From: an uncultured Bacteroidota bacterium
Lineage (GTDB): Bacteria; Bacteroidota; Bacteroidia; Bacteroidales; UBA12077
Direction of reading: 5' to 3'
Assembly (NCBI GenBank): GCA_913055635.1
Contig: CAJXLK010000043.1
Span: forward strand, 1 to 32,968
DNA: 32,968 nt
The stretch's first letter is position 1, and each line of letters begins with the position of its first letter. The translations under genes were made by a program, and so were the position numbers. This document shows, piece by piece, positions 2,337 to 24,314 of this stretch. Under the pieces are notes generated by a model, which did not search any database, was not told where the DNA came from, and worked only from the letters and a program-made list of their open reading frames with translations.

Positions 2337-4031
2337 TTACATCTTCTCCTCGACTTTTTTCAAAATTTCCTGCTCTTTCTGCTCAGCCTGTTGCTCGATT
2401 TGTTTTCCCTTCTGGACGATTTGATCGACAAAATCCTGATCTTCAAGGTCAGCAGCATTGATGCGCACATTCATAAAAGCGCCCTTCACAGCAGAACGAA
2501 CGGCACAAGCCCCGACTCCGGCGTCGGTCACCGAGTTGGGATTGCCCTGTTCCACCATGGCTTCAATCACCTCAAAAGCTTCATAAGCCTTTTCCATGAT
2601 CCGGTAAGGTACCATGATGGCATTGCGCGTGGCATCCTGGATGGCCTGATGCCGGGCTGCCTTTTCCTGGTCGTTGGATTTGGGAAGTTTAAAGGCGGCC
2701 ATGATTTTGTTGAAAGCCTGGGTATCCTCATCCACCAGTTTCTTAAGCTCATCCTGCAGGGCGATGCCTTGATCGGCCCAATCGGAAAATTCTTTCCAGC
2801 GATGATCCCAGCCGCGTTTGTGAGAAGAAAGATTGGCCACCATAGTTGCCAGGGCCGCCCCCAGTGATCCCATATAGGCCGAAACGCTTCCACCACCCGG
2901 TGCCGGTGACTCGGAAGCGGTTTCATCCGAAAAATCGGAAACGCTCATATGATTAAGTTTCTTCTGCTCACCGCGCTTTTTGGCCATCTTATACTCAATG
3001 ATCTTTTCATCGGGCTGAAATTCATACAGATCGTCCAGGCCCAGCGACCTGACAGCAATCTTAATCAGTTCTTTTTCAGGTATACCCGTCGAACGGTTCT
3101 GTTTGCGCAGGAAATATTTTCCCGCCTCCAGCATCCCTTTCAGGGGAATCAGCCCGACGAGTTCAGAGCCGGTCACCCTCAAACCACGGGCTTCTGCACG
3201 CTTACAGGCCTCATCAAAAGCCACGTGTACCGGTGTCACACTGATATCGGTCAGGTTCAGTGAGAGTTGGGCGATGCCGTACTCCTCAATGTACCAGCCA
3301 ATGCCTTTGACCTTTTTCAGGCTTCCGGGGGTGTAGACCTTTTCGCCGTTCTCGTCCAGTATCGGCTTGCCGGTGAGTTTGCCGCCTTCGCGCTTAACCC
3401 GGCCTTTCTCACGGATGTCGAAAGCCACTGAATTGGCCCGGCGGGTGGAGGTGGTGTTCAGGTTGATGTTATAGGCCACCAGGAAATCGCGGGCCCCTAC
3501 TGCGGTGGCTCCTGACTGTTGGTTGAACCGGGCGGGACCAAAATCGGGCTTCCATTGGGGATCGGCCAGCTTATCTTTTAAACCTTCATATTCTCCCTTG
3601 CGCACCTGGGCCAGATTCTGTCTCTTTTCTTCGTAGGCGGCATGCTCATAGCAGTAAACCGGAATCTCCAGCTCTTCGCCGACGCGCTTAGCCAGTCGGC
3701 GGGCATATTCTACGGCATCCTTCATCTCCAAACCCGAAACCGGTACCAGCGGACACACATCAGTGGCACCGAAACGGGGATGCGCCCCCGAATGTTTACG
3801 CATATCAATCAACTCTGATGCCTTTTTGACCGCACGAAAAGCCGCTTCCAGGACTTCTTCCGGCGTACCGACAAAGGTCACCACCGTCCGGTTGGTGGCC
3901 TGTCCCGGGTCTACGTCCAACAGGTCAACCCCTTCAACGGCCTCTACCTGATCAGTGATTTGTTTGATGATATCCATGTCTTTGCCCTCACTGAAATTGG
4001 GCACGCATTCCAGTATTTGTTGTTCTGCCAT
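2337..4031 (-). CDS. ftcD: Bifunctional glutamate formiminotransferase / formiminotetrahydrofolate cyclodeaminase
   Basis: This cytoplasmic enzyme takes the formimino group from N-formiminoglutamate, the last histidine-degradation intermediate, onto tetrahydrofolate, then deaminates it to 5,10-methenyl-THF. The 564-residue protein starts MAEQQILECVPNFSEGKD, the classic formiminotransferase N-terminus (CVPNFSEG), followed by GVDLLDVDPGQATNRTVVTF and HSGAHPRFGATDVCPLVP. The C-terminal cyclodeaminase domain (from about residue 365) carries SESPAPGGGSVSAYMGSLGA. Both activities are fused, as is usual for Bacteroidota. The stop lies beside the repeat-rich region. The next gene upstream in the same direction is hutI (4196-5446), which makes N-formiminoglutamate, so the two genes serve consecutive steps. 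The 164-bp gap with a repeat copy between them leaves co-transcription open. Confidence 0.95.
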   Translation of the reverse strand: MAEQQILECVPNFSEGKDMDIIKQITDQVEAVEGVDLLDVDPGQATNRTVVTFVGTPEEVLEAAFRAVKKASELIDMRKHSGAHPRFGATDVCPLVPVSGLEMKDAVEYARRLAKRVGEELEIPVYCYEHAAYEEKRQNLAQVRKGEYEGLKDKLADPQWKPDFGPARFNQQSGATAVGARDFLVAYNINLNTTSTRRANSVAFDIREKGRVKREGGKLTGKPILDENGEKVYTPGSLKKVKGIGWYIEEYGIAQLSLNLTDISVTPVHVAFDEACKRAEARGLRVTGSELVGLIPLKGMLEAGKYFLRKQNRSTGIPEKELIKIAVRSLGLDDLYEFQPDEKIIEYKMAKKRGEQKKLNHMSVSDFSDETASESPAPGGGSVSAYMGSLGAALATMVANLSSHKRGWDHRWKEFSDWADQGIALQDELKKLVDEDTQAFNKIMAAFKLPKSNDQEKAARHQAIQDATRNAIMVPYRIMEKAYEAFEVIEAMVEQGNPNSVTDAGVGACAVRSAVKGAFMNVRINAADLEDQDFVDQIVQKGKQIEQQAEQKEQEILKKVEEKM

Positions 4032-4127
4032 AGCTCTATCTTTTTTGGGTTTATTTGATTTGGGTAAAGACTGCTAATAATTATAGATCAGTATTGCCTT
4101 GCACATTCCTCCATTATTCCGGAATGC

Positions 4128-4189
4128 TCATTATAGATCCCGCATCTTTGAGACATTTCGTTGTTGTGTAAGTCCATGCATGAGGGATG
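4128..4189 (-). repeat. Dispersed intergenic hairpin repeat, copy 2 (inverted)
   Basis: Read on the minus strand it shares CATGCA-GGACTTACACAACAA with the copy at 1749-1810 (one mismatch). After a 3-nt length difference it continues with ATGCGGG-TC-ATAATGA. The left stem arm has one mismatch (CCCTCAT). It sits between hutI and ftcD, only 6 bp beyond the hutI stop, so it may act as a structured 3' end or processing site. Confidence 0.7.
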
Positions 4190-4195
4190 CATTGT

Positions 4196-5446
4196 CTAAA
4201 GGGGATAATCCTGCCATTGTCCGTTCAGCATGATCTGGTCGATCAGATAGCTGCCATAGGCATACGGCATAAATTGGTACGAAGGAATGGGTTTGGTCAC
4301 GAAAATATTGGCCGTTTTGCCTTGGGTGATGGTTCCCAGGTGCTTCTCCTCGCCCATGGCATAGGCGCCATTGCTGGTGGCGGCATGGATGACTTCCTCG
4401 GGCAACATTTTGAGCTTGATGGTTCCCAGCGACATGATCAGTTTCATGTTGCCGGAAGGGGAAGAGCCCGGGTTGTAATCGGAAGCCAGGGCCAGGGGCA
4501 GGCCGGCCTGCATCATTTTGCGTACCGGAGGATCGACCAGTCCCAGGAAAAAGGCGGCTCCGGGAAGAATGGTGGGCATGGTCTGTGACGCCAGCAAGGC
4601 CTGAATCTCCTCTTCCCCGGTATATTCCAGGTGATCGACCGATAGGGCCTGATGGCTCACCCCGGCCTGGATGCCGCCCGAATAATCCAGCTCATTGGCA
4701 TGGAGCTTTGCCCGCAAGCCGTACTTCGCCGCAGCATTCAGAATGCGATCGGTTTGCTGGACGGTGAAAAATCCCCGGTCACAAAAAACATCCACATAAT
4801 CAGCCAGATTCTGGCGACCCACCTCCGGTATCATCTCATTGACCACCAAATCGACATACTTGTCGGGATCCTCTTTGTATTCAGCCGGAATGGAATGAGC
4901 CCCCAGAAAAGTGGATTTGATCGTGATGGGGGTGGTCTCCTTCAATCTTCGAATGACCCGCAGCATCTTGATTTCATCTTCCACGGTAAGCCCGTAACCG
5001 CTTTTTATCTCCACGGCACCCGTGCCCAAAGCAATGATCTCATTGACCCGGGCCAGCGATTGGTGGTAAAGATCATCCTCCGGGGTTTGGTGCAGGCGCT
5101 TGGCGGAATTCAGTATACCTCCCCCCCGACGGGCAATCTCCTGGTAGGAAAGCCCGCGGATTTTATCGCCATATTCAATCTCTCGGCTGCCGGCATACAC
5201 CAAATGGGTATGGGAATCACAAAAGGAAGGAAAAACCATCCGCCCGGAAGCATCCACCTGCTCAGCAGGGGCATCTTCCCCGGTTAACTCGTCCATCCGC
5301 CCATAATCGGCAATCTTGCCGTCACTCACCCGTAAATAAGCATCGTCCAGGGTCTTTAACTGCGACATGGCCGCTCCGGCCACCCATTTATCGGGGCGAT
5401 CAGCTATGTTCACCAGCGACTTGATGTTCTTAATCAAAATATCCAT
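4196..5446 (-). CDS. hutI: Imidazolonepropionase
   Basis: It hydrolyses 4-imidazolone-5-propanoate to N-formiminoglutamate in histidine degradation. It belongs to the metal-dependent amidohydrolases. Visible motifs are the metal-binding CDSHTHLVYAGSRE, the substrate-loop region SYQEIARRGGGILNSAKRLH, EIKSGYGL, LGAHSIP, KLHANELDYSGG, SVDHLEYTGEE, LPGAAFFLGL and LASDYNPGSSPSGNM. From the start chosen here the protein is 416 residues, the normal family length. The frame is open to 5695, but the ATG at 5446 has a GGGGAG ribosome-binding site about 6 nt upstream and begins MDILIKNIKSLVN as in homologues. The upstream extension would run into the divergent gene at 5535. hutH and hutU are not in the window. 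Confidence 0.95.
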   Translation of the reverse strand: MDILIKNIKSLVNIADRPDKWVAGAAMSQLKTLDDAYLRVSDGKIADYGRMDELTGEDAPAEQVDASGRMVFPSFCDSHTHLVYAGSREIEYGDKIRGLSYQEIARRGGGILNSAKRLHQTPEDDLYHQSLARVNEIIALGTGAVEIKSGYGLTVEDEIKMLRVIRRLKETTPITIKSTFLGAHSIPAEYKEDPDKYVDLVVNEMIPEVGRQNLADYVDVFCDRGFFTVQQTDRILNAAAKYGLRAKLHANELDYSGGIQAGVSHQALSVDHLEYTGEEEIQALLASQTMPTILPGAAFFLGLVDPPVRKMMQAGLPLALASDYNPGSSPSGNMKLIMSLGTIKLKMLPEEVIHAATSNGAYAMGEEKHLGTITQGKTANIFVTKPIPSYQFMPYAYGSYLIDQIMLNGQWQDYPL

Positions 5447-5473
5447 GGATACTCCCCTTTTTAAGATTTGATA

Positions 5474-5504
5474 CGAAAATACAAAATTCCTACATTTAAC
5501 CCAA
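5474..5504 (-). promoter_or_regulatory. Predicted Bacteroidota-type promoter for hutI
   Basis: On the minus strand, TTG (5502-5504) and TATTTTCG (5474-5481) are separated by 20 nt. This matches the Bacteroidota -33 TTG / -7 TAnnTTTG arrangement at 7 of 8 positions of the -7 box. It lies 28 nt before the hutI start. Confidence 0.4.
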
Positions 5505-5534
5505 TCATTATCCAACCCACTGATATAGGCGACC

Positions 5535-6908
5535 ATGTTCAACAACCTGAAAAAATCACTCAACCGGCCGGGGCGCCCGTTATACCTATGGGCATTGCTG
5601 CTTTTCATGGGAATGCCATCGCCTCTTTTGGCCCAAAGCGACACCACCGGGCAAGAAACCAAAAAAGGCTGGACGTTTGGAGCCTTGCCGGCCATCGCCT
5701 ACGACTCCGACCGCGGATTCAAATACGGGGGGCTGGTCAACTTCTTCAACTACGGCGATGGAAGCACCTATCCCGATTACCTGCACTCCATCTATCTTGA
5801 ATGGTCAAGAACCACCAAAGGCAGTGGCATCAACCAACTGCAGTTTGACACCGAACGCCTCTGCCCCGCTATACCTGTGCGCCTTACGGTGGATGTGAGC
5901 TATATGATCGAAAAATCCCTGGACTTCTACGGATTCAATGGCTTCCAAAGCGCTTACCACCGCGGTTTTGAGAAAGAAGGCCATCCCGATTACATCTCCA
6001 GGATGTTTTACCGCTACGAACGCAACCTGTTCCATTTCTCGGCCATTTTCCAGGACCATTTTAAGGACAGCCCCTTCAAGTGGCTGATCGGGATGGACCT
6101 TTACCACCACCGGCTCGGACCCTTCGATTTTGACCGCTACAACAAAGACAGCGACGACCCACTCAAAGATACCCTTACCCTGTTCGAACAATACACCGAC
6201 TGGGGGCTGATCCCCGAAAAAGAGGCCGACGGGGGCCTGGTCAACTATTTGCGCATGGGGATGGTCTACGACACGCGCGACCAGAAAGCCAACCCCATGG
6301 AGGGGATATGGTCGGAGTTGCTGTTCTCAGCAGCACCAGGCTTTTTAGGCAACAGGGAAAACCAATTTGCCAAACTATCGGCCATTCACAGGCAGTATTT
6401 TACCCTGATCCCCCGCGACTTAAACCTTGCCGTGCGCCTGGGCTACCAGGGTACAGTGGCCGGTAGAGCCCCCTTCTACATGCAAAGTTACCTGATCAGC
6501 TCCTATATGGAAAGTGTGAATGTGGAAGGCCTGGGTGGTAAAAAATCGCTGCGGGGCATCCTGCGCAACCGCATCCTGGGCGATGACATCATCTATGCCA
6601 ACTTCGAGTTGCGTTGGAAATTCTGGCGGGTGAACCTGTTCAATCAACAGCTTTACCTTGCCCTCAGCGGCTTCTGGGATAGCGGTACCGTCATCGATCC
6701 CATACCCCTGCCCGCAAATGAAATACCGGAAGCGGTCAACCCCAACCGATATTTCTCGCGTAAAAACGACGGCCTGCACCATAGCGTGGGAGCAGGCCTG
6801 CATATTGCACTAAACAGAAATTTTATAGTGGCCGTCGACTATGGAAGGGCCATGAATCAAAACGACGGCCGCGATGGTATATATATTGGCATGAATTTTC
6901 TTTATTAA
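5535..6908 (+). CDS. BamA/TamA (Omp85) family outer-membrane beta-barrel protein
   Basis: The 457-residue protein has a basic N-terminus and hydrophobic signal segment (LYLWALLLFMGMPSPLLA, then QSDTTG). The remainder is rich in alternating aromatic/polar strands typical of an outer-membrane barrel. Strands resembling the surface-antigen (D15) domain are visible, such as GMVYDTRDQKANPMEGIW, followed by LRGILRNRILGDDIIYANFELRW and a last strand ending GIYIGMNFLY with a C-terminal aromatic residue. No POTRA repeats precede the barrel, so it is probably a short Omp85 relative rather than the essential BamA. It is divergent from hutI with 88 bp between the starts, and convergent with the LytTR gene. 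Its substrate or client is unknown. Confidence 0.75.
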   Translation: MFNNLKKSLNRPGRPLYLWALLLFMGMPSPLLAQSDTTGQETKKGWTFGALPAIAYDSDRGFKYGGLVNFFNYGDGSTYPDYLHSIYLEWSRTTKGSGINQLQFDTERLCPAIPVRLTVDVSYMIEKSLDFYGFNGFQSAYHRGFEKEGHPDYISRMFYRYERNLFHFSAIFQDHFKDSPFKWLIGMDLYHHRLGPFDFDRYNKDSDDPLKDTLTLFEQYTDWGLIPEKEADGGLVNYLRMGMVYDTRDQKANPMEGIWSELLFSAAPGFLGNRENQFAKLSAIHRQYFTLIPRDLNLAVRLGYQGTVAGRAPFYMQSYLISSYMESVNVEGLGGKKSLRGILRNRILGDDIIYANFELRWKFWRVNLFNQQLYLALSGFWDSGTVIDPIPLPANEIPEAVNPNRYFSRKNDGLHHSVGAGLHIALNRNFIVAVDYGRAMNQNDGRDGIYIGMNFLY

Positions 6909-6976: not shown

Positions 6977-7309
6977 TTATAGAGAAGCTGCCTGGCCTAC
7001 TTTTCTGAGCAGGGCCAACTTCCGGATCGGATTGATGTGGAATGTCTTCTGGTTGCTTAAAAGAACCTGGTCTGAAAATACAGCCTCCAGGTGCTCCAGG
7101 TTAATCATCTCCCGGCTGCTGACATTAAAGAAGGTATTGTCATCGAGGAAATGTTGCAATTCACTCAGTTTTTCCTTCATCAAATAGTGATTGCCGTCGC
7201 TTAACTCAATCAGGGTGCCAACAAGATATTGCTTACAATAAATAATCTTGTCTTTTTCAATCTTTTTCTTTCCCTGAGCAGATGATATGGTGATGGTATC
7301 TTTTTTCAT
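6977..7309 (-). CDS. Small stand-alone LytTR DNA-binding domain protein
   Basis: The protein is 110 residues. Residues about 15-105 match the LytTR fold: KDKIIYCKQYLVGTLIELSDG, LMKEKLSELQHFL, then FFNVSSREMINLEHLEAVF, where most LytTR proteins have F-R-V-H-R-S-x-L-V-N. The end KTFHINPIRKLALLRKV fits the last strand and helix. LytTR proteins usually carry a receiver domain; none is present here, so the input would come from a partner. The gene lies 38 nt downstream of the kinase-like gene 7348-8055 on the same strand and probably shares its transcript. Targets may be the peptide/CHAT cluster, but no direct repeat typical of LytTR sites was identified. Confidence 0.75.
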   Translation of the reverse strand: MKKDTITISSAQGKKKIEKDKIIYCKQYLVGTLIELSDGNHYLMKEKLSELQHFLDDNTFFNVSSREMINLEHLEAVFSDQVLLSNQKTFHINPIRKLALLRKVGQAASL

Positions 7310-7347: not shown

Positions 7348-8055
7348 TTACCAGGCCTGGCACTCACCAGGAATGACGATGGTATAGACCACTTCATGCG
7401 AATCGCTCCGGTGGGTAACACGACCCTGTATCAAGTCAAGTAGCTTATTTACGGCTTTCCAGGAAAAATAATCATAATCATTCTGATCTGCATCCCGTTG
7501 CTCATTCTTTTCCTCGAGTTCATTGCTGCGGATGCCCCGAATTTCAATGGCAATCCGGTTATCTTTATTCGTTTCATATTCAATCGTTACCAAACCCTCG
7601 TTGATGTATGAGCGCGCCAGTTCGATGACATTGCTGATCACCCGCTCAACTACATACTCATCAGAATATACCGTCGTTGCCTGGTTGTTATTCATCAGGT
7701 AAAGATCGATGTATTGATCCTGCTCAATGCGGCCTTTATAGGCTTCGGTGACATCAGCCAACAAACGGTTGATGTTCACTTTGGCCGGTTTCACATGGAT
7801 ACAGCCCGATTCGACTTCAGACAGGTCAATCATGTTCTGAAAATACTGGAGAATTTGGTAGCCACTGTCCATGATGCGTTCAGCAAATTCCTGCGTCCGC
7901 TCAGCAGAAACATCCCCGCTCATGAGCAATTTGGAAAATCCAATTACTGAGTTCAAAGGGGTTCTGACCCGATGGGAAACAAGGGCAAGGAAACGTTCCT
8001 CGGCATCCTGTTCTTTCTCCTTGTTATTCAATTGGTATCTCTGACGGTATAGCAT
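7348..8055 (-). CDS. Cytoplasmic histidine kinase-like protein with degenerate ATPase domain
   Basis: The 235-residue protein has a HisKA dimerisation domain with a good H-box (FLALVSHRVRTPLNSVIGFS, His28) preceded by a charged helix. The region that should be the HATPase domain keeps a recognisable N-box (VVERVISNVIELARSYI), but the glycine-rich G1 and G2 boxes (DxGxG, GxGLGL) are absent, replaced by EIRGIRSNELEEKNEQRDAD. ATP binding is therefore doubtful. It could act as a phosphotransfer or scaffold protein, as Spo0B does, or be regulatory. It has no transmembrane segment or sensor domain. It lies 73 nt after the TPR protein gene and 38 nt before the LytTR gene, in one run of minus-strand genes. 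Confidence 0.75.
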   Translation of the reverse strand: MLYRQRYQLNNKEKEQDAEERFLALVSHRVRTPLNSVIGFSKLLMSGDVSAERTQEFAERIMDSGYQILQYFQNMIDLSEVESGCIHVKPAKVNINRLLADVTEAYKGRIEQDQYIDLYLMNNNQATTVYSDEYVVERVISNVIELARSYINEGLVTIEYETNKDNRIAIEIRGIRSNELEEKNEQRDADQNDYDYFSWKAVNKLLDLIQGRVTHRSDSHEVVYTIVIPGECQAW

Positions 8056-8128: not shown

Positions 8129-8881
8129 TTACTTTTGTTCTATTCTGTCCAGCTTGCCCTTTACTTCATTGGCTTGCTCCCGGTAATAATCGCTTTCGGC
8201 TGCCAGGGTGCTGAGCATATTGCGGGCTTGTTCCATATTGCCCAGTCGGATATGGCACATCGACATGTACCAGCGGGCCTGGTCCAAATAAAGGTTGTCG
8301 CGGTCTTCCACCACATCCTCAAAGGATTGATTGGCTTTTTGGTACTTCTGAACTTCCATGTAGCTGATGCCTGAATAGAGACTGGCTGCTACATCATCCC
8401 GCTTTTGAAGTACTCGCTGGAAAAGGTGCAGTGCCTGGTCATAATCCTGCTCCTTGTACTTTTCCATGGCATGGGTCAGCAGGTTGTTGATCTCATGGCT
8501 CCCCGAACGGTCGGTGATGGTCACCGAATAAGGCTCATAATACTTGTGAAAGATCTCCTCCTTGGTCGGTGCATTGTTGACATGAGCGGCATAATAACCC
8601 AGGCTGCTCAGGCTAAGCACAAGTGCACCTATAAGGGCACCTTTCACTGCTTTGCGCTTGAACCAAACCACAGGACGGGATTCTTTCTCCCGGATCATAT
8701 CCTGCACCTGATCCTTAAATTCGCTCAGATCATCATCCATCAGGGCCGCCTCAATGTCTTTTCTCAGGTGATATTCATCAGCAAGCTCCCGGTCCCGATG
8801 AAGGGCGGTCTCAAATTCCCGGGTCTCTACATCACTCAGATCACCCTGAATATAGGCTTCAATGTTCTCATATGCATTCAT
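8129..8881 (-). CDS. Membrane-anchored TPR protein, anti-sigma-like
   Basis: The 250-residue protein has an N-terminal cytoplasmic part (YIQGDLSDVETREFETALHR, DEYHLRKDIEAAL) resembling the N-termini of Bacteroidota anti-sigma factors, though without a zinc-binding motif. One membrane helix (around residues 80-100, GALIGALVLSLSSLGYYAAH) follows, then an extracytoplasmic domain with three or so TPR units (ALHLFQRVLQKRDDVAASLY, KANQSFEDVV, ARWYMSMCHIRLGNMEQARN). It is paralogous to the protein at 12733-13470: both have an (I/L)F..YY..Y segment after the helix and DQA.WY.....I..G....A near the end. An in-frame GTG two codons upstream (8887) is possible, but the ATG is preferred. No sigma gene is adjacent here, in contrast to the paralogue. 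Confidence 0.7.
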   Translation of the reverse strand: MNAYENIEAYIQGDLSDVETREFETALHRDRELADEYHLRKDIEAALMDDDLSEFKDQVQDMIREKESRPVVWFKRKAVKGALIGALVLSLSSLGYYAAHVNNAPTKEEIFHKYYEPYSVTITDRSGSHEINNLLTHAMEKYKEQDYDQALHLFQRVLQKRDDVAASLYSGISYMEVQKYQKANQSFEDVVEDRDNLYLDQARWYMSMCHIRLGNMEQARNMLSTLAAESDYYREQANEVKGKLDRIEQK

Positions 8882-8952
8882 GGTCACTGATTTTTGGGGT
8901 TGATAAATTGATGTTTGTATACAATCGCTTCATCGTTAAAAGATTCATGATT

Positions 8953-9048
8953 ATTAGTTGAATCCGTCGTCCTGGCGGTCGGCGGTGCTGCCTTTCGTTT
9001 TTTCATCATCGTCATCTTCCTTGCCGCCACGGATTTCAAACATTTGGG
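8953..9048 (-). repeat. 96-bp direct repeat, copy A (3' half of peptide gene A)
   Basis: It is identical to 9198-9293 except for one base (9029 versus 9274), which gives a synonymous Arg codon change. It encodes the shared C-terminus of the two double-glycine-leader peptides. Confidence 0.95.
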
Positions 9049-9127
9049 CACTGGTCAGCCGGCTCTGGCTGAAGCGTTCGAAGAAATGGTCCTGTTGTTG
9101 GTTCATGTTTGTTACTTGGGTATACAT
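8954..9127 (-). CDS. Small double-glycine-leader peptide A (57 aa)
   Basis: The peptide starts MYTQVTNMNQQQDHFFERF and has a leader ending RLTSAQMFEIRGG, followed by an acidic 22-residue core beginning KEDDDDEKTKG and ending DRQDDGFN. Leaders of the form L(S/T)xxxMxxIxGG are typical of Bacteroidota natural-product/bacteriocin-type precursors cleaved after GG during export. That this is such a precursor is inference from the motif. The core has no Cys and few hydrophobic residues, so it is more likely a signal or protease substrate than a classical bacteriocin. It lies 72 nt before the TPR membrane protein gene and just after its near-identical sister gene. The 96-bp duplication with conserved reading frame supports it being real. 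Confidence 0.75.
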   Translation of the reverse strand: MYTQVTNMNQQQDHFFERFSQSRLTSAQMFEIRGGKEDDDDEKTKGSTADRQDDGFN

Positions 9128-9197
9128 GGCTGTTGGTTTTTTGGGGTTGGCAATGGGTTATTGGTTTGTTAATGGTTTGAAATTTCTGTAGTTGTTC

Positions 9198-9293
9198 ATT
9201 AGTTGAATCCGTCGTCCTGGCGGTCGGCGGTGCTGCCTTTCGTTTTTTCATCATCGTCATCTTCCTTGCCGCCGCGGATTTCAAACATTTGGG
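9198..9293 (-). repeat. 96-bp direct repeat, copy B (3' half of peptide gene B)
   Basis: This is the partner of 8953-9048, with 95 of 96 bases identical. Sequences outside the repeat, which encode the leaders, are unrelated at DNA level. The core was therefore either duplicated or homogenised by gene conversion. Confidence 0.95.
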
Positions 9294-9402
9294 AGTGGTT
9301 CAGGCTGCAGGTTGCAAAGTGTTGCAAAAGGTTGCTGCTGGTGTCGTTGGGTGATAATGGATTGTTGCGTTTCATGGCTTTGAAATTTTTGAATTTATAC
9401 AT
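9199..9402 (-). CDS. Small double-glycine-leader peptide B (67 aa, or 58 aa from an internal Met)
   Basis: It ends with exactly the same residues as peptide A, from QMFEIRGG to DRQDDGFN, but has a different leader (MKRNNPLSPNDTSSNLLQHF, then ATCSLNHSQMFEIRGG). The first ATG is at 9402; an internal ATG at 9375 would give a leader of length closer to peptide A. Neither has a strong Shine-Dalgarno sequence. It would be the first gene of a minus-strand run B, A, TPR protein, kinase-like, LytTR (9402 to 6977). The TPR-CHAT protease gene starts divergently 524 bp away. No C39-peptidase ABC exporter is in the window. Confidence 0.75.
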   Translation of the reverse strand: MYKFKNFKAMKRNNPLSPNDTSSNLLQHFATCSLNHSQMFEIRGGKEDDDDEKTKGSTADRQDDGFN

Positions 9403-9607
9403 TTAATGATTTGATTTTCAATACAATATTTACATTTAAACAAACCTTCTATATTTTTTTATTTATTGATATACAGTACCTTAAAACTGGCATTTAATCA
9501 CCTAAATGCTTATTTCTTATGCCTTTTCTTTCGTTTTAGCCATTCGGCCTTTTATGATTTGTCCTTAAGCTTTTCCGGAAACTTTTTTTGTGAAGAACCT
9601 TTTACTG

Positions 9608-9685
9608 ACATATCCCATCCGAAGCCAAAAGGTAACCCCTTTTACCCGGAAAAAATCCTCCATTTTTCCATAAAAACCTCATTAT
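9608..9685 (+). repeat. Imperfect direct repeat upstream of TPR-CHAT gene, copy 1
   Basis: It begins ACATATCCCATCC and continues AAAAGGTAACCCC-TTTT. It matches 9781-9857 at a spacing of 173 bp, with the first 36 bases nearly identical and the remainder a looser A/T-rich match. This may be a regulatory site or the remnant of a duplicated promoter region. Confidence 0.7.
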
Positions 9686-9780
9686 CAATTCCTAAATACA
9701 GCTTTTTATGAAAAAACCAAAAGGAAGATGTGGATGTAAAGAACAACTTACTCAATGCTTCCTTGAACATGTTTTCATAT

Positions 9781-9857
9781 ACATATCCCATCCAAAGGCA
9801 AAAGGTAACCCCCTTTTGGAAAAAAAATTTTCATTTTTTTTATAATACCCTTATTTT
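9781..9857 (+). repeat. Imperfect direct repeat upstream of TPR-CHAT gene, copy 2
   Basis: Second copy of the 9608 repeat. It ends about 25 bp before the predicted -33 element of the TPR-CHAT promoter, a position suited to an activator or a sigma-factor-related element. Confidence 0.7.
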
Positions 9858-9926: not shown

Positions 9927-12749
9927 ATGGCCATAAGGGCTTTAACAGCATACGTCTTCCTCATCGTCCTGCTCCTCAGCTTTCCAGGCACTTCTGTTGC
10001 CGGTATTGCTCATAAAAGCCCCGGCCAGGATACCTTAGTGCTCCAAGCGGATTCAATCGGGCAACTCAAGCAAAGGGGGATCCGCCAGGCAAGGCAGGGA
10101 AAACTGGAGCAAGCCCGTAAAACGTTCTTGCGGGAGCTGGCTTTGAAAAAGAAGCACTTTGCATCAGAAGCTCCGGAAATCGGCCATACCTATGTCAATC
10201 TGGGAGTAGTCTGCAAAATGCAGGGCAAGATGGATAAGGCCCTGGCTTATTACAACAAAGCCGACAGCATCTATTCCGGCCATCCAAGGGTCAGTGAAAG
10301 GAAAACGGCCACCAATTACCAGAACATGGCCAACATCTATTCCCTGCAAAAAGACTATGAGAAGGCTAAAAATTATTACCAACGGGCCCTGTCACTTTTC
10401 AAAAAGGATTCTATCAATAACCTTGACCGGTTGGGGATGGTGCATAATAACCTGGGCATCATGCTTAAAGAACAGGGGGAATTTAAACCAGCCACAAAAA
10501 ATTTTAAAAAAAGCCTCCAATTAAAAAATGAGACCAGTTCAACCTCTCTTGCAGGAACATATGGAAATTTGGGCAATGTATATTACAAAAGAAATCAACT
10601 AGCCCTTGCAGAGCGATATTTAAAGAAATCCATGGAACTGGACCTTCAGCATCATGGCAAAAAAAGTACGCCGGTGGCCCTGGATTACATGAATTATGGC
10701 CTTTTAAAATTAAAGAAAAAAGAATATGGGGCTTCCCGGGGCTACCTTCAGAAAGCCCTGGAGATCATCCTTCAAAAACGGGGGAAGTTTCACCCCGAAG
10801 CCTCCCGGTGCTATGAAAACCTTGGGGCATTGGCCGATACGAAAGGTAAACTTAAACAATCCGTTAAGCTTTATCAAAAAGCCCTTTTATCGCTGTCCAA
10901 TAATTTCCAGGACACCTCCATTTATGCCAATCCGCAAACGGCCAATGTCATTTCGAAAACACAGTTCCTGCGCATATTAAAAAAGAAGGCCTCCCTGCTC
11001 AGGAGATTGGAAAAACACCCCGATAAAAACCTCAGGGTAGCCCTGGCCAGCTACCAAAAAGCCCTGGAAGTGATCAGGGAGTTGCGCACGGGCTATCAAA
11101 ACCAGGAGAGCAAGCTGCTGATGGCGGCCAATGAGCGGGAAACATCGCTCAACGCCCTCTATACAGCCATAAAGCTTTACCGCCGCACCGGCCGGCAGCA
11201 GTACCTGCGGGAAGCCTTCCGCTATGCCGAAGCCGGAAAAGCCGCCGTACTGCATGAATCCATGCAAACCAGCCAGGCCCTTCAGTTGGGCAACATCCCT
11301 GACAGCTTGCGCCGGAAAGAAAAGAAACTAAAAAAACACATATGGACTTATGAAGAGTTGATCTTCGAAGAACGCAAAAGAAAAGATCCCAACAGGAAAA
11401 AGATCAACTACTGGAACGAAGAAATGTTCCGGCTTCAAAAGGAATATGAAAGCCTGGTCCAAAAATTTGAAAAAAAGTATCCCCGCTATTATGCCCTTAA
11501 ATACAACAAGAAGGCCATCACCCTGAAAGAAGTCCAACAGCAGGTACAACCCGATGAAATCCTTGTTGAATATGTATTGGGAAGAGACAGCCTGCATGCT
11601 TTCACCATTGAATCCAACCAGGCAGCCCTACAGAGCATGGCCGTTGATTCCACCCTGCCCCGGCAAATCCTTGAAATGCGCCAGTTTCTCTCAAACCGAA
11701 ACTTTTCCCAACACAACCGCCAGGATTTTCAACACTACCAGGAGCTTTCCCATCGTCTTTATAACCGGCTGATCGAACCCCTGGATCTTGTTCCGGATAA
11801 AAAACTTACCATCATCCCCGATGAAGTCCTGGCCTATTTGCCCTTTGAAATCCTGGTCACCCGCAAGCAATCGTTTGATGGCATCAATTACCAGGACCTG
11901 GCCTACATGATCCGCAAACGTCAAATCGGCTATTCCTACTCAGCCAAAGTACTTTTTAATCAGCCAAAGGAAAAAGAGCGCCATGGAACGAAGCTGGCGG
12001 CATTTGCCCCGACCTACAAAAACATCGAGCAGGTAAGCGATTTCAACTCCCCAACCCGCCAGCAATACCGTGAAAAATTGTATCCGCTGAAGGGCATCAA
12101 GAAAGAAGCCCGGCGCATCACGAAAATCATCCAGGGAGATGTCTATTCGGGGAAGGAAGCCACCGAAACCCGCTTCAAAGACACCTCCGGGCAATATGAT
12201 ATATTGCATCTGGCCATGCATACCCTGGTCAACGACCAAAACCCGATGTACTCCAAAATGGCCTTTACCCAGCAGGAAAACCCTAATGAAGATGGTTTTC
12301 TCAATACCTATGAAATATACAACCTGAATCTGGACAGCCGGATGGCTGTATTAAGTTCCTGCAATACAGGAACCGGCAAGCTCAAGAAAGGAGAAGGGGT
12401 GATCAGTTTGGCCCGTGGATTTAAATACGCCGGTTGTCCTTCCATTGTCATGACCATGTGGCCGGTCGAGGACAATTCCAGCATCCGGCTGATGGAATAC
12501 TTTTACCAGGCCATTGCCAAAGGCCAGAGCAAAGACGAAGCCCTGCGTTCCGCCAAGCTGAAATTCCTCCGCAATTCTGATCCCCTGCATGCCCATCCCT
12601 ATTTCTGGGCAGGTTACATTCTCATTGGCGATCAGTCAGCCCTTTATTCACCAAGTTGGGTATGGTGGTCCCTTGCAGGAGGGATACTGTTGATCCTGTT
12701 AATTGCGGCCGTTATTTTCAGGCGCCGGCGCATCAATCGATCTGTTTGA
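9927..12749 (+). CDS. Secreted, membrane-anchored TPR-CHAT caspase-like protease
   Basis: The 940-residue protein has an N-terminal signal segment (ALTAYVFLIVLLLSFPGTSV), then about seven tetratricopeptide repeats at roughly residues 50-320 (TYVNLGVVCKMQGKMDKALA, NYQNMANIYSLQKDYEKAKN, NNLGIMLKEQGEF). A helical linker follows, then a C-terminal CHAT domain at about 560-890. Its catalytic dyad is visible: His765 in LHLAMHTLVND and Cys812 in LSSCNTGTGKLKKGEG, followed by ARGFKYAGCPSIVMTMWPVE. A C-terminal helix (SLAGGILLILLIAAVIF) and a basic RRRRINR tail would anchor it in the inner membrane with the protease in the periplasm. CHAT domains are caspase relatives. Its 3' end overlaps the convergent anti-sigma-like gene by 17 bp. 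Neighbouring peptides, membrane TPR proteins and sigma factor are possible substrates or regulators, but that is inference. Confidence 0.9.
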   Translation: MAIRALTAYVFLIVLLLSFPGTSVAGIAHKSPGQDTLVLQADSIGQLKQRGIRQARQGKLEQARKTFLRELALKKKHFASEAPEIGHTYVNLGVVCKMQGKMDKALAYYNKADSIYSGHPRVSERKTATNYQNMANIYSLQKDYEKAKNYYQRALSLFKKDSINNLDRLGMVHNNLGIMLKEQGEFKPATKNFKKSLQLKNETSSTSLAGTYGNLGNVYYKRNQLALAERYLKKSMELDLQHHGKKSTPVALDYMNYGLLKLKKKEYGASRGYLQKALEIILQKRGKFHPEASRCYENLGALADTKGKLKQSVKLYQKALLSLSNNFQDTSIYANPQTANVISKTQFLRILKKKASLLRRLEKHPDKNLRVALASYQKALEVIRELRTGYQNQESKLLMAANERETSLNALYTAIKLYRRTGRQQYLREAFRYAEAGKAAVLHESMQTSQALQLGNIPDSLRRKEKKLKKHIWTYEELIFEERKRKDPNRKKINYWNEEMFRLQKEYESLVQKFEKKYPRYYALKYNKKAITLKEVQQQVQPDEILVEYVLGRDSLHAFTIESNQAALQSMAVDSTLPRQILEMRQFLSNRNFSQHNRQDFQHYQELSHRLYNRLIEPLDLVPDKKLTIIPDEVLAYLPFEILVTRKQSFDGINYQDLAYMIRKRQIGYSYSAKVLFNQPKEKERHGTKLAAFAPTYKNIEQVSDFNSPTRQQYREKLYPLKGIKKEARRITKIIQGDVYSGKEATETRFKDTSGQYDILHLAMHTLVNDQNPMYSKMAFTQQENPNEDGFLNTYEIYNLNLDSRMAVLSSCNTGTGKLKKGEGVISLARGFKYAGCPSIVMTMWPVEDNSSIRLMEYFYQAIAKGQSKDEALRSAKLKFLRNSDPLHAHPYFWAGYILIGDQSALYSPSWVWWSLAGGILLILLIAAVIFRRRRINRSV

Positions 12750-13470
12750 TCAGCCCTCTTGCCCTGGCGGTTGGCCACATGCGCTTTTCAATCATCCAAT
12801 CCAGCCGGTCTTTGGCCCGATCCCTGTGCCCGGCTTTGATCAAGGCCAAAGCAGAATACCAGCTGGCCTGATCACGAAGGAGCGGATCATTTGAGGAGGC
12901 CACCCAATTAAAGCAACCCAGGGCCTGAAGTGGCCTGTCCATCTCCAATCGGGTCAGCCCCAGGTAAAACCACCCCACCTGGTTGGAGGCATTTTCCCCT
13001 ACCGCAAGGCTGAAGTGCTTTGAAGCAGCATCCCATTTTCCCGCTTCATAATAAGAGAAAGCCCGGTGCAATGGGGTGGGGTCCTCCCCTCCCGAACGAA
13101 CAGATGCCAATGCCGGGTAGGATGTATAATACCGACTGAACAGATCGCTCCCTTCCATCGGTGGGCGGACCATATATACCATGGTGCCGAAGATCAGCAG
13201 AAAGGCCATCCCGGCAACCATCGCCACCCTTCTCCAGGAAGGGTCCCAAATGCCGGAACCGTCTGCAGCCCGGCGGTCAAGGACTTCGCTGATCTGCCTG
13301 CGAAGAGACATCACATCATCATCCCGCAGGGCTTCAGCCATTTCACCGGATAAATCAATCCCTTCCCCCCATACCGGGGCATCACCTGCCTGACTTGCCC
13401 CGGACAATTGCCCCCGGCAATCCAAATCTTCTAAATATCGCCAATTGCGCTCATTCTTATTTTCTTCCAT
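12733..13470 (-). CDS. Membrane-anchored TPR protein, putative anti-sigma factor
   Basis: The 245-residue protein has a cytoplasmic N-terminus of about 95 residues, one membrane helix (VAMVAGMAFLLIFGTMVYMV) and a periplasmic TPR domain (LHRAFSYYEAGKWDAASKHF, GWFYLGLTRLEMDRPLQALG, DQASWYSALALIKAGHRDRA). It is paralogous to the protein at 8129-8881. Its start overlaps the 3' end of the sigma-factor gene by 14 bp, and GAGG lies 7 nt before the ATG at 13470, implying translational coupling; an upstream Met at 13494 is less likely. The pairing of an ECF sigma with a single-pass partner supports an anti-sigma role, although no zinc-binding anti-sigma motif is present. Confidence 0.75.
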   Translation of the reverse strand: MEENKNERNWRYLEDLDCRGQLSGASQAGDAPVWGEGIDLSGEMAEALRDDDVMSLRRQISEVLDRRAADGSGIWDPSWRRVAMVAGMAFLLIFGTMVYMVRPPMEGSDLFSRYYTSYPALASVRSGGEDPTPLHRAFSYYEAGKWDAASKHFSLAVGENASNQVGWFYLGLTRLEMDRPLQALGCFNWVASSNDPLLRDQASWYSALALIKAGHRDRAKDRLDWMIEKRMWPTARARGLIKQID

Positions 13471-14035
13471 GATAATCCTCAAACCTTTGATCATTTTTAA
13501 TCGACTGCACCAGGCGCTCCTTGCATTTATACTTTTTCTTTTTGGCCGCCTTCTCGCTTTTATGTCCCATCATCCGGGCAATATCCTTCAACGGATATTT
13601 GTTCAGAAACAGCTTCAGCAATTTTTGACACTCCCGACCCAACCGGCGAAAATGATCCTGGTATATCCGGTACTTCTGCTGCTGCTCAAATTCGCGGATT
13701 ATACCCGCATCCGCCGCCTGCTCCAGGTAGTGATATTCCATCAGGTTGTTGATCTCCGTTTTGCGATTGCGCAACTCCCGCATCCAGATGTTCCAGCAGA
13801 CCGAAAAAAAATAGGAAGTAAAAGTGGTGGTCAATTCGAATGAACCATTTCGGATCTTCTTATAGGTCAGTATAATGGCTTCCTGCAAGACATCCCTGGC
13901 ATCCGCCTGATTTCCGTTATTCTTGGAAACCATCTCGTAGATCATACCAAAATACATATCATACAGGTAATTCAGGATTTTATTGTCTTTCACCCGAATA
14001 CCCTGTATGATTTCAAGGTCATTATATTGTCTCAA
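13457..14035 (-). CDS. ECF-type RNA polymerase sigma-70 factor
   Basis: The 192-residue protein shows sigma region 2 (YLYDMYFGMIYEMV, then QADARDVLQEAIILTYKKI with the DxxQE signature, TSYFFSVCWNIWMRELR) and sigma region 4 (LGRECQKLLKLFLNKYPLKD, IARMMGHKSEKAAKKKKYKC), ending in a basic helix. It lacks regions 1 and 3, so it belongs to the ECF group. It is translationally coupled to the putative anti-sigma gene downstream. The nearby TPR-CHAT gene is convergent, and its promoter looks like the housekeeping type, so regulation of that gene by this sigma factor is not shown by sequence. Confidence 0.9.
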   Translation of the reverse strand: MRQYNDLEIIQGIRVKDNKILNYLYDMYFGMIYEMVSKNNGNQADARDVLQEAIILTYKKIRNGSFELTTTFTSYFFSVCWNIWMRELRNRKTEINNLMEYHYLEQAADAGIIREFEQQQKYRIYQDHFRRLGRECQKLLKLFLNKYPLKDIARMMGHKSEKAAKKKKYKCKERLVQSIKNDQRFEDYHGRK

Positions 14036-15272: not shown

Positions 15273-15911
15273 CTATTGAACCTTTTTGGTCGAATACTGC
15301 TTGACATAATAAGCCACCTTTTCCAGAGAGGTGGTCATGTCGTAATTCTCAATGATGATGTCCGAGGATACATTCACCGGTACAGAAGTATAATTGAGGA
15401 TGCCTTTGATGCCGGCCACCACCATCGCCTCGGCCACCTTGGAGGCATGTTCAGGAGGTACAGTAAGAATTCCAAGCGATATATTCTTTTCAGAGATGAT
15501 CTGCTGCAAATCATTCATCGAATAGCACTTCACCCCGGAAATAACCCGGTTAACCTTCTCGGGGTCTGTATCAAAAGCAGCCACTATTTGCAATTTGGAG
15601 CGTTTCCCCTTAAAAAAAGCCGTAATGGCGCGTCCAAGATTTCCAATTCCGACCACAGCCGCATTCAACCCTTGTTCGGAATCAAGGATCTCTCCAATCA
15701 ACTCCACCAGGGCCCTTACATCATAGCCTTTTTTCAGGGTGGTGGAATACCCGATCAGCATCAGGTCGCGGCGCACCTGGACGGCGGTGATGTTGTGCAG
15801 ATTGGCCAGTTCATGGGAATAGATGTACTCCTTACCCCGGTCCAGGCAATTCAGCAACGTGCGCCTGTAAACACTTAATCTTTCAATGGTCTTTTCCGGT
15901 AGACTTTTCAT
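15273..15911 (-). CDS. rex: Redox-sensing transcriptional repressor Rex
   Basis: Rex is a dimeric repressor that leaves DNA when NADH rises relative to NAD+. The 212-residue protein has an N-terminal winged helix (KTIERLSVYRRTLLNCLDRG, SHELANLHNITAVQVRRDLM, LIGYSTTLKKGYDV) and a Rossmann NAD(H)-binding domain (NAAVVGIGNLGRAITAF, AFDTDPEKVNR, GILTVPPEHASKVAEAMVVA, ILNYTSVPVNV). Length and motif order match the family. Its start overlaps the stop of the receiver-kinase gene by 4 bp (ATGA), so it is the last gene of the hydrogenase operon. A near-consensus Rex site lies in the promoter region of that operon (23864-23881), implying NADH-controlled autoregulation of the NAD-linked hydrogenase. Confidence 0.96.
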   Translation of the reverse strand: MKSLPEKTIERLSVYRRTLLNCLDRGKEYIYSHELANLHNITAVQVRRDLMLIGYSTTLKKGYDVRALVELIGEILDSEQGLNAAVVGIGNLGRAITAFFKGKRSKLQIVAAFDTDPEKVNRVISGVKCYSMNDLQQIISEKNISLGILTVPPEHASKVAEAMVVAGIKGILNYTSVPVNVSSDIIIENYDMTTSLEKVAYYVKQYSTKKVQ

Positions 15912-17062
15912 GATGATGTCGTTTCTGCGTTATACTCTTCTTTGGTGGGCAAGAAAACGGTAAAGGTACTGCCTTTTTCAGGTTCACTCTTCACCTGTAT
16001 GTCTCCCCCGTATAGGTCAATTACTTGTTTGACAATGGATAGGCCCAAACCGCTTCCGGTGATATTTTTGGTTTTTTCATTCTTGATGCGAACAAACTCT
16101 TTAAATAAACGGGCTGTCTCTTCCTGGTTCATTCCAATGCCGGTATCGCTCACCCGGATGCGCGCCCCTTCGCGAGTCCCTTCAAGGTGAATATCCACCC
16201 GGCCCCCTTCATAGTTGTATTTGACAGCATTGGAGACCAGGTTGTTCATGACAATCTCCATGTCATTGGGATCGCTATAAAGGCTAACCGGCTGGTCGGG
16301 TTCATGAAAACGTATATCCAATTCCTTTTGTATGGCATAGGGATTGACCGATTCAATGGCGCTTCGGGCAATATCCGCCAGATTCACCTGCTCATACTGT
16401 TTGTCTTTCTCGTCAGACTGGATCTTGGTTAAATCCAACAAATCCATGATCAGGGTCCGCATCCCCTTAATGCGTTGCAAAGAACGCTCTACAACCTGTT
16501 GATAATCCGATAATTGCTCCCCGGCCTGCCGCTCCTGCATCATCCGCAAATACCCTTCTACCGCATTCAACGGCGATTTTAACTCGTGAGAAAGGACCGA
16601 AAGAAACTGAAACCGCACCTCTTTGCCTTCCTTATTCAGCCGCTTGGTCATCGAGCGAAGGAAAATGTTCTTGGTTACATTCTCCATGGCCGATTTCAAC
16701 TCCTGAGGGGTGAAAGGTTTGGGAATAAAATCATAGGCCCCCTGATCAGTGGCCTTGACAGCCAGCTCCAGGGATGCATACGAGGTGATGATCATGACAA
16801 TGATATCGCGGTTGTTTTTGTTGATGTAATCCAGCACCTCGGTTCCCTGGATACCGGGAAGTTTGTTGTCAAGCAACACGATATCCGGGGGGCTTTGCTT
16901 GATGAAATCCAGGGCTTCTTCCCCGGTAAAAGATTCATAAACCTGAAAGCCCCGGTCTTCATCCATAAAAGGATAACTGACGGTAAAATTTTTTAAAATC
17001 CGCTTTACCCCTGAACAAATACCAGGTTCATCATCCACCACAAGTACATTGAGGTTTTTCAT
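15908..17062 (-). CDS. Receiver-histidine kinase hybrid (REC-HisKA-HATPase)
   Basis: The 384-residue cytoplasmic protein has an N-terminal receiver domain (NVLVVDDEPGICSGVKRIL, phospho-acceptor Asp in DIVLLDNKLPG, VMIITSYAS, FIPKPFTPQEL), then HisKA (LSVLSHELKSPLNAVEGY) and a full HATPase domain (MNNLVSNAVKYN, VSDTGIGMNQEE, GSGLGLSIVKQVIDLYGG). It has no DNA-binding domain. It starts 5 nt after the lone receiver gene and overlaps rex by 4 bp, so it is part of the hydrogenase operon. It is probably a relay component that receives phosphate from the hydrogenase-domain kinase or senses it through the receiver domain; the direction of flow is inference. Confidence 0.92.
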   Translation of the reverse strand: MKNLNVLVVDDEPGICSGVKRILKNFTVSYPFMDEDRGFQVYESFTGEEALDFIKQSPPDIVLLDNKLPGIQGTEVLDYINKNNRDIIVMIITSYASLELAVKATDQGAYDFIPKPFTPQELKSAMENVTKNIFLRSMTKRLNKEGKEVRFQFLSVLSHELKSPLNAVEGYLRMMQERQAGEQLSDYQQVVERSLQRIKGMRTLIMDLLDLTKIQSDEKDKQYEQVNLADIARSAIESVNPYAIQKELDIRFHEPDQPVSLYSDPNDMEIVMNNLVSNAVKYNYEGGRVDIHLEGTREGARIRVSDTGIGMNQEETARLFKEFVRIKNEKTKNITGSGLGLSIVKQVIDLYGGDIQVKSEPEKGSTFTVFLPTKEEYNAETTSS

Positions 17063-17067
17063 AGGGC

Positions 17068-17460
17068 TTACCTGTTCAATAACTTATTAATCTCTTTTAC
17101 CATCTGCTCTTTGCGAATGCCTTTCTCGAGGTACAGATCAGCCTTGATCCATTTTTGCTCCTGCTCGCTGTTCAAACTGAAAGAGACCCCGGTTTCAGAT
17201 GCAACAGCCGTGGCAATGATGATGGGAACATCCGGATATTGCCGGCGGGTTTTATAACTGAGGATGAACCCACTGTCTTCGGTTTCCATCATCAAATCGT
17301 ATATGGCCAGATCCGGCCTGGTGGATTGCAAAACCTCCTCGGCTTGCTTTTGACTTTCAGCGGTAACTACCCTGAAACCCGATTGTTCAAGGTAAAAACG
17401 CATCTGGAACAAGTAATCCACATCGTCGTCGGTCAGCAAAATGGTCGTTGTCTCGCTCAT
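17068..17460 (-). CDS. Single-domain response regulator (REC only)
   Basis: The 130-residue protein consists of one receiver domain: acidic pocket TDDDVDYLFQM, phospho-acceptor Asp in LAIYDLMMETEDSG, the Thr switch in IIIATAVASETG and the Lys in LYLEKGIRKEQM. All key residues are present. There is no output domain. It begins 5 nt downstream of the hydrogenase-domain kinase (17466-19469) and ends 5 nt before the receiver-kinase gene, so it likely passes phosphate between these two. Confidence 0.92.
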   Translation of the reverse strand: MSETTTILLTDDDVDYLFQMRFYLEQSGFRVVTAESQKQAEEVLQSTRPDLAIYDLMMETEDSGFILSYKTRRQYPDVPIIIATAVASETGVSFSLNSEQEQKWIKADLYLEKGIRKEQMVKEINKLLNR

Positions 17461-17465
17461 AAATA

Positions 17466-19469: not shown

Positions 19470-19503
19470 GGTTCATGCGCTTGTGAGTGTTCCCGCTTTT
19501 TTT

Positions 19504-19565
19504 GACCCCGCTTAGCGGGGTCCGCTAAGCGGGGATGTATTTGTTCCGACCCCGCTAAGCGGGGG
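19504..19565. repeat. Cluster of CCCCGCT-AGCGGGG palindromes between hydA and the sensor kinase
   Basis: CCCCGCTTAGCGGGG at 19506-19520 is followed at once by TCCGCTAAGCGGGG (19521-19534), and another palindrome CCCCGCTAAGCGGGG lies at 19550-19564. These are the same units as at 15155-15246. Inside the operon they could form mRNA hairpins that set differing levels of hydrogenase and sensor. Confidence 0.75.
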
Positions 19566-19577
19566 TGTAAATTTCAA

Positions 19578-21302: not shown

Positions 21303-21360
21303 GGTTTTGCTTTATGGTGATGAACCCGGCCAACCGGACGGACCGGCCCCCGGGCGTATG

Positions 21361-23313: not shown

Positions 23314-23334
23314 GAATGGCGCTTAAATTTTGTT

Positions 23335-23796: not shown

Positions 23797-23845
23797 GGTT
23801 GCGCTGATTAGATGAGGCTCAACCCTTTGGTAAAAAGGGCCAGGA

Positions 23846-23853
23846 CAAAAATA
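23846..23853 (-). promoter_or_regulatory. Predicted -7 box of the hydCBA operon promoter
   Basis: On the minus strand this reads TATTTTTG, an exact TAnnTTTG. A good -33 TTG at 20-nt spacing is not present. The Rex-like site at 23864-23881 lies in the region between -7 and -33, where bound repressor would block polymerase. Confidence 0.4.
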
Positions 23854-23863
23854 ATAAATTATA

Positions 23864-23881
23864 TTGTTATTTCATAAACAA
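23864..23881. promoter_or_regulatory. Putative Rex operator
   Basis: TTGTTATTTCATAAACAA matches the widely found Rex motif TTGTTAA-N4-TTAACAA at all but one base of each half-site. It lies between the divergent hydCBA...rex and ferredoxin-sensor-phosphatase operons, and rex is the last gene of the former. Confidence 0.6.
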
Positions 23882-23883
23882 TG

Positions 23884-23904
23884 TTATAATTTTAACAATT
23901 ATAA
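23884..23904. promoter_or_regulatory. Second AT-rich inverted repeat in the hyd divergent promoter region
   Basis: TTATAATT (23884-23891) and AATTATAA (23897-23904) are perfect 8-bp arms around TTAAC. A Rex-like half-site (TTAACAA, 23892-23898) overlaps. It could be a second regulator site or only AT-rich promoter DNA. Confidence 0.35.
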
Positions 23905-23913
23905 AATATTTGC

Positions 23914-24308: not shown

Positions 24309-24314
24309 CCCGTC

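Follow-up and report, generated by a model that had tools for sequence, protein, structure and literature searches.

Csx29 of the type III-E CRISPR systems cleaves Csx30, an inhibitor of CASP-sigma, and that set brings together a TPR-CHAT protease, an anti-sigma factor and an ECF sigma factor (PMC10028731), as the locus described here does with a putative anti-sigma factor. Unlike the present system, Craspase is triggered by RNA through Cas7-11, and neither Cas7-11 nor any other Cas family was matched by Pfam in the 25 open reading frames scanned here; the CHAT protein of our locus further differs from Craspase in its signal-like N-terminus and membrane anchor, and its partner is a peptide with a double-glycine (GG) leader. 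To our knowledge, the triggers of CHAT proteases other than Craspase are mostly unknown. DegS is triggered by peptides, its input being misfolded outer-membrane proteins. The DegS/RseA/RpoE pathway (PMC10028731) resembles our proposal in that an envelope protease frees an ECF sigma factor by a cut in a membrane anti-sigma factor; in the proposal a caspase-like CHAT fold would replace DegS, and a dedicated GG peptide would replace misfolded outer-membrane proteins. CHAT proteins also occur in the genetic context of the ECF54 sigma group, for which regulation by proteolysis has been proposed; in the accessible sections of that work the sigma factor lacks an anti-sigma factor, and no exported peptide is named (PMC8999054).

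The ComC/ComAB and BlpC pheromone systems have a GG leader, a short core and a C39 exporter in common with our system. ComD is the receptor kinase of ComC-type pheromone systems; here CHAT, TPR and sigma proteins take the place of such a kinase, the host belongs to the Bacteroidota and the cores are mostly acidic. The TIGR04149 and grasp-with-spasm GG peptides of Bacteroidota have a similar leader end, but the cores in our set are almost without Cys and the peptides of our locus fall below the family cut-off. RRNPP receptors, which are cytoplasmic TPR regulators, most of them with an HTH, share the TPR fold alone with the model of our CHAT protein (RapI, Z 23.9). The parts each have known relatives (GG peptides with C39 exporters, TPR-CHAT proteins, protease-freed sigma factors), and their combination was not found in the literature searched. 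That search, which had preprints and most subscription journals outside it, returned no description of a CHAT-linked GG peptide and no example of peptide signalling of this type in Bacteroidota.

The window, meaning the whole stretch of 32,968 nucleotides analysed, holds two such peptide genes between a divergent TPR-CHAT gene (9927-12749, plus strand) and a gene for a TPR protein (8129-8887, minus strand). The features of this locus are as follows.

6977..7309, minus strand: LytTR DNA-binding protein, no receiver match
7348..8055, minus strand: soluble histidine-kinase-like protein with HisKA, no HATPase match (Pfam)
8129..8887, minus strand: second TPR protein, lying downstream of the peptide genes, with anti-sigma-like relatives
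8954..9127, minus strand: GG-leader peptide gene 2, 57 aa, with the same 22-residue core as gene 1
8954..9022, minus strand: core of peptide 2 past GG, 22 codons and stop
9199..9402, minus strand: GG-leader peptide gene 1, 67 aa, Met10 a possible true start
9199..9267, minus strand: core of peptide 1 past GG, 22 codons and stop, 69/69 nt identical to the peptide 2 core
9626..9639, minus strand: promoter-like element GGGGTTACCTTTTG, proximal copy, upstream of the peptide genes, with a -10-like GGGATA downstream
9799..9812, minus strand: promoter-like element GGGGTTACCTTTTG, distal copy, second copy of the same element
9927..12749, plus strand: TPR-CHAT protease-like protein, Pfam CHAT 2.2e-61, N-terminal signal-like segment and C-terminal membrane anchor
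12733..13494, minus strand: TPR membrane protein, putative anti-sigma factor, directly after the sigma gene
13457..14035, minus strand: ECF-type sigma factor, Sigma70_r2 25.8 bits against 24, TIGR02937 54 against 42.9

The HisKA protein without HATPase and the LytTR protein without receiver beside it form an odd signalling pair seen at loci of both the window's genus and its sister genus. Elsewhere in the window, positions 15273-27532 hold a large [FeFe]-hydrogenase-like cluster with an Fe-hydrogenase domain fused to HisKA/HATPase, a CoA-binding/DNA-binding protein which we take to be Rex-like, response regulator domains, a SpoIIE-type phosphatase, and NADH-dehydrogenase-like and [2Fe-2S] subunits. 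A formiminotransferase-cyclodeaminase and an amidohydrolase at 2337-5695 are suggestive of histidine degradation, and 27932-31780 encodes a protein of 1282 aa that has DUF4397 in eight stretches and ends in a sorting tail for type IX secretion.

The two small adjacent minus-strand reading frames of 57 and 67 aa described in the original prediction are both present as stated, and their common C-terminal part is QMFEIRGG followed by KEDDDDEKTKGSTADRQDDGFN. They belong to a DNA repeat of 116 nt with 91% identity, the copies lying 245 nt apart; the cores and stop codons agree at 69/69 nt and the aligned leaders at 72/102 nt. Counting back from the stop, 94 of 95 bases match before a second mismatch is reached, and the 95 of 96 reported earlier is reproduced when the base after the stop is included. 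The sole difference is, as claimed, synonymous, and it falls in the leader end common to both twins. Leaders cut by C39-type peptidases are expected to carry hydrophobic residues at -4, -7 and -12, and both peptides have this spacing (L-x4-M-x2-I-x-GG); the GG-type leader assigned to them is supported, and a plausible C39 exporter is encoded in the same genome. The start codons are uncertain: most relatives start with MK, and translation of the 67-mer may therefore truly begin at its Met10. Neither peptide reached a curated family above cut-off in Pfam or NCBIfam: the 57-mer scored 18.3 bits against TIGR04194 (cut-off 33), and the 67-mer gave no match in the NCBIfam scan for peptides of the TIGR04149/grasp-with-spasm type.

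With the TPR protein at 8129-8887 as query, the locus was recovered from other members of the window's genus and from the sister genus. Two genomes of the same genus, G001 and G002, carry two peptides each at the equivalent position, with cores identical within each genome, and the contigs of two others (G003, G004) stop short of this position. In the sister genus a peptide occupies the equivalent position in 15/18 fetched regions, with two in G005; the peptide-less regions (L050, L056, L065) are cut, and end at or near the gap or are without it. The GG is invariant in an alignment of 22 such peptides. Their recurrence at this place makes the window pair more than a chance find.

These twins bear directly on the original suggestion that the shared core reflects either constraint or recent conversion. 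The twin cores of G001 and G002 are the same protein within each genome and differ from the window's and from one another. Across the core and the last Gly of GG, the twins of these two genomes together differ at 11 codons, all synonymous, with 0 amino-acid changes, and their stop codons differ as well; if about 1/4 of random changes are synonymous (our own estimate), 11/11 would arise by chance at about 10^-7. It follows that both copies are translated and both cores kept alike, while between species the cores change. That the two frames are simply the product of a recent duplication or conversion, the core in common having no special role, agrees with the window pair taken alone, whose cores have 0 differences, but it is at odds with the synonymous divergence in the sister species, which points to older copies kept identical in protein; we regard it as very improbable, and it was already disfavoured. 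Constraint is thus the part of the suggestion that stands, and conversion applies at most to the window pair. These codon comparisons show the core to be constrained at the protein level. Twins or multiples with core parts in common are also present in G197, G093, G266 and G168; twin identity is not a rule, since the two cores of G005 differ and those of G093 differ in their first half.

Of the 71 unique cores, 53 begin with D or E, 63 have a net negative and 3 a net positive charge, and one contains Cys; the median length of all 74 cores is 17. A profile of the peptides, with at most 16 candidates scored per genome, matched at least 30 of 393 genomes from the order, one of them that of the window. 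From the matches outside both genera, less one already in the profile, 29 regions were fetched. A CHAT domain is present in 23 of these and a partial CHAT protein in L115; L108 has sigma and TPR genes beside the contig end, and in four (L125, L128, L130, L131) no CHAT was found. The peptide of L113 adjoins the TPR gene and not the CHAT gene. At the level of the class, a profile of 50 peptides matched 7/394 genomes besides the window's. In the 3-kb neighbourhoods taken there, a C39 exporter adjoins the peptide of L254, the cores of L255, L256, L259 and L261 contain Cys and are of other GG kinds, the L253 core is without Cys, and no GG reading frame was obtained from L257 and L258. A CHAT domain was matched in 0/8 of these loci, the pieces being perhaps too short to reach one; in this sample, therefore, peptides linked to CHAT seem for the most part restricted to the order of the window. 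Viral contigs searched with the second TPR protein gave no match. In four sister-genus loci (L048, L050, L047, L052), other GG-leader peptides, with Cys in the core, occur within a few kb of the CHAT cassette and are perhaps, at a guess, a second cargo of the same exporter.

To place the peptides in their genomic setting, we counted them beside CHAT genes, after dropping CHAT genes with <500 bp upstream, fragments <600 aa and near-identical copies. Under a strict pattern, a GG peptide lies within 1.2 kb upstream of 47/87 distinct CHAT genes, on the divergent strand in 43 of the 47, as compared with 0-1/87 for shuffled upstreams and 8/322 for the upstreams of other genes. A widened pattern places a divergent GG peptide at 59/87, a count that is partly fitted because the pattern was extended after viewing loci missed by the first. 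By source, the strict count is 1/1 for the window, 15/17 for relatives found through the TPR protein, 14/47 for named genomes found in the same way and 17/22 for loci found by the peptide profile, a biased source which contributes 22 of the 87 CHAT genes. Homologues of the leader pattern near TPR-CHAT genes, proposed earlier as a check, are thus found with the GG conserved.

Named genomes, scanned with an alignment of the TPR protein, yielded 80 loci. The nearest are from metagenome-assembled genomes (MAGs) named Bacteroidales or Bacteroidetes, followed by Carboxylicivirga and Saccharicrinis and, more distantly, Flavobacteriales, Cytophagales and Saprospiraceae. Loci of Carboxylicivirga and Saccharicrinis carry a GG peptide of a different sub-type (with ends such as KVKI or KIKF) that the strict pattern misses, and in the Flavobacteriales and Cytophagales loci seen, sigma, TPR and CHAT genes are present and a recognisable peptide was not found. 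The most compact arrangement is that of L104 and L110, where sigma, TPR, CHAT, peptide, C39 and HlyD genes are contiguous with gaps of at most 217 bp in which no reading frame reaches 30 aa; in L120 the genes follow in this order too, with an extra 179-aa reading frame (8307-8846), of unknown kind, between peptide and exporter. The Bacteroidales MAG Cfx3-06 has 23 peptide matches, two of them interrupted by stops, and nine TPR-CHAT loci on eight contigs (L175, L186, L188, L192, L196, L198, L204, L207 and L211), each with at least one short GG peptide. Gene order across these genomes shows that the peptide belongs to a conserved sigma/TPR/CHAT cassette, often with an exporter, a membership that the earlier reading had missed.

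The statement that no C39 exporter is nearby holds for the window's reading frames scanned, but the genome encodes two elsewhere: a search for a C39-peptidase transporter, suggested at the outset, found Pfam Peptidase_C39 in proteins on contigs C19 and C38. The C19 exporter is 73-75% identical to sister-genus exporters that lie beside peptides, falls in the same tree group and adjoins a gene of HlyD size (440 aa); no GG reading frame was found beside it. An exporter of this type occurs in 5/5 genomes of the genus, where it is not linked to the peptide locus, and an exporter lies beside the peptides in 9/18 sister-genus regions, 4 of the 9 without one being short contigs. The orthology and tree grouping of the C19 protein therefore make it most likely that the cognate exporter is present and unlinked, and we infer that it would carry the window peptide. 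The choice is not certain, because the C38 exporter, which has its own GG reading frame nearby, groups with the Carboxylicivirga cassette exporters (45-48% identity). Across the set, a C39 exporter lies within 8 kb of 27/59 peptide-bearing CHAT genes as against 2/28 peptide-less ones (Fisher p 0.0002).

A GG leader and a C39 exporter are also what would be expected if the peptides were bacteriocin-like or RiPP precursors, with the sigma and CHAT genes serving regulation or immunity. Leader matches among the 50 peptides scanned lend this some weight: NCBIfam gave TIGR04149 (5), ComC (2) and one each of bacteriocin_sig, BLP_Lacticasei, grasp_w_spasm_A and lant_SP_1948, and Pfam gave ComC (3, best 2.1e-7) and Bacteroid_pep (1). 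The cores themselves fit poorly, 63 of the 71 unique ones being net negative and one having Cys; the gaps of L104 and L110 leave no room for a modifying enzyme, and the window peptides exceed no family cut-off. We judge a bacteriocin or RiPP role unlikely, and set aside both the bacteriocin reading, on core charge, Cys content and lack of a family match, and the graspetide reading, on the missing space for an enzyme and the sub-threshold scores. The earlier view that the peptide is not a typical bacteriocin and may be a signal is supported.

The predicted partner of the peptide, the TPR-CHAT protein, has its catalytic His-Cys at H761/H765 and C812, and these residues are conserved in 85, 86 and 86 of 89 CHAT proteins, respectively. 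A hydrophobic segment is present at the C-terminus in 84 of the 89, at the N-terminus in 64 and at both in 60, a pattern that would be expected if the protein sits in the periplasm, anchored to the membrane. Csx29 of Craspase is the best structural match (Foldseek E 3.8e-15; Z 29.4 over 609 residues at 7.4 A) to the AlphaFold2 model, whose mean pLDDT is 88. Close behind come two matches to single parts of the model, separase (Z 26.5) and LGN-type TPR domains (Z 26.3); Csx29 leads because it covers both parts. Foldseek also returns DdvA, a transmembrane anti-sigma factor (structures 8rot and 8rw5), presumably, as a guess, through its helical repeats. A cytoplasmic RRNPP-type signal was set aside, given the predicted membrane anchor and the absence of any Pfam HTH match in the window CHAT protein. 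Matching of charge between core and TPR region was likewise rejected, the two being uncorrelated (rho 0.008, n=59).

The association with CHAT genes would also be expected if the core were a substrate or inhibitor of the protease, either trimmed by it or blocking its active site, and the acidic start of the core (D or E first in 53/71 unique cores) could then be a recognition site. Such a role does not by itself account for the exporter and the promoter motif described below, and the cores vary widely among clades whereas the CHAT catalytic residues are conserved; we hold it to be a minor though real possibility.

The sigma gene is followed within 300 bp by a TPR gene in 76/84 distinct cases, 52 of them overlapping, and a sigma gene with a close or overlapping partner behind it is the usual layout of a sigma/anti-sigma pair. 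One transmembrane segment is predicted in 61/68 proteins of the TPR2 type and 52/79 of the TPR1 type; in the window it is present in the protein at 12733-13494 and not, at the threshold used, in that at 8129-8887. The NCBIfam anti-sigma model NF052375 matches 9/47 TPR proteins, and the window protein at 12733-13494 has no match to the NCBIfam anti-sigma models. Its N-terminus is poorly modelled in the predicted structure, and when that model was compared with known structures, only TPR-type and designed helical proteins were returned, none at E <=0.001, which speaks neither for nor against an anti-sigma fold. The protein at 12733-13494 looks like a putative anti-sigma factor of the adjacent sigma factor.

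Upstream of the peptide genes, a direct repeat (9591-9643 and 9764-9816) holds GGGGTTACCTTTTG followed by the GGGATA element. Peptide starts of the sister genus have GGGGTCACCTTTT...GGAATAAATAGGTGA, or a variant close to it, about 70-90 bp upstream, with L060 as an exception. Of 35 collected sites, 21 have the downstream element at position 25 and 7 at 23-24, and in the other 7 it was not recognised; a promoter motif of fixed spacing precedes the peptide genes of the window's family. GGTYACC is found upstream of 18/59 first peptides, of which 14 belong to that family, as against 0/59 for the reversed motif and 1/28 for the peptide-less CHAT genes. The window's genome has three exact copies of the 14-mer, two at the peptide locus and a third on contig C21 (L213), which has a similar downstream element and precedes a gene whose product has a borderline type IX sorting tail. 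With at most one mismatch this genome has 8 motif sites versus 2 reversed; eight sister-genus genomes have 0-4 exact 13-mer sites each, and 11 genomes together have 20 motif sites versus 5 reversed. Given how often the reversed pattern occurs (5 vs 20; 2 vs 8), any one site may be a chance match. The other motif copies precede a mixed set of genes (metallophosphatase, C10 peptidase, SpoIIAA-like, FtsX permease, DUF4154), two of which have no family. The element resembles an ECF promoter, and the sigma factor of the locus may be the one that reads it.

We propose, with about even confidence, that the exported peptide sets a periplasmic switch of CHAT protease, anti-sigma factor and sigma factor. 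The window twins would be precursors of one exported peptide; the unlinked C39-peptidase ABC exporter and its HlyD partner would cut after GG and move the 22-residue acidic core out of the cytoplasm. The core, read in the periplasm or on return from outside, would bind the TPR repeats and, as ligand, set the state of the membrane-anchored periplasmic TPR-CHAT protease, which when active would cut the TPR anti-sigma protein or license its cutting. Removal of the anti-sigma factor would leave the ECF sigma factor free to start transcription at promoters of the form GGGGTYACC-TTTT...GGAATAAATA, that of the peptide gene included, and by this autoinduction the switch would probably be self-reinforcing. 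Several findings weigh against this model: the motif precedes only 18/59 first peptides and also stands before unrelated-looking genes, the protein at 12733-13494 has no anti-sigma match, the charges of core and TPR region are uncorrelated, and linkage of the exporter to the peptides is missing in the window's genus and in 9/18 sister-genus regions.

In its widest form, the proposal is that a widespread and undescribed system of peptide communication or self-recognition exists in Bacteroidales, in which a lineage-private exported peptide switches the periplasmic TPR-CHAT protease and frees an ECF sigma factor for the production of more peptide; this we put forward tentatively, as somewhat the less probable outcome. 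In some lineages the system would have multiplied, as in Cfx3-06. The peptide may serve the population as a signal or its own cell as a private sensor of the envelope; recognition or private signalling would, as a guess, agree with cores that are specific to a lineage and with the 23 peptide matches in Cfx3-06. With an exported peptide as its genetically fixed partner, a CHAT protease would gain a defined trigger and target. Experiments are possible because Carboxylicivirga strains kept as isolates carry a version of the cassette and, if the proposal is true, peptide signalling in Bacteroidota becomes directly testable.
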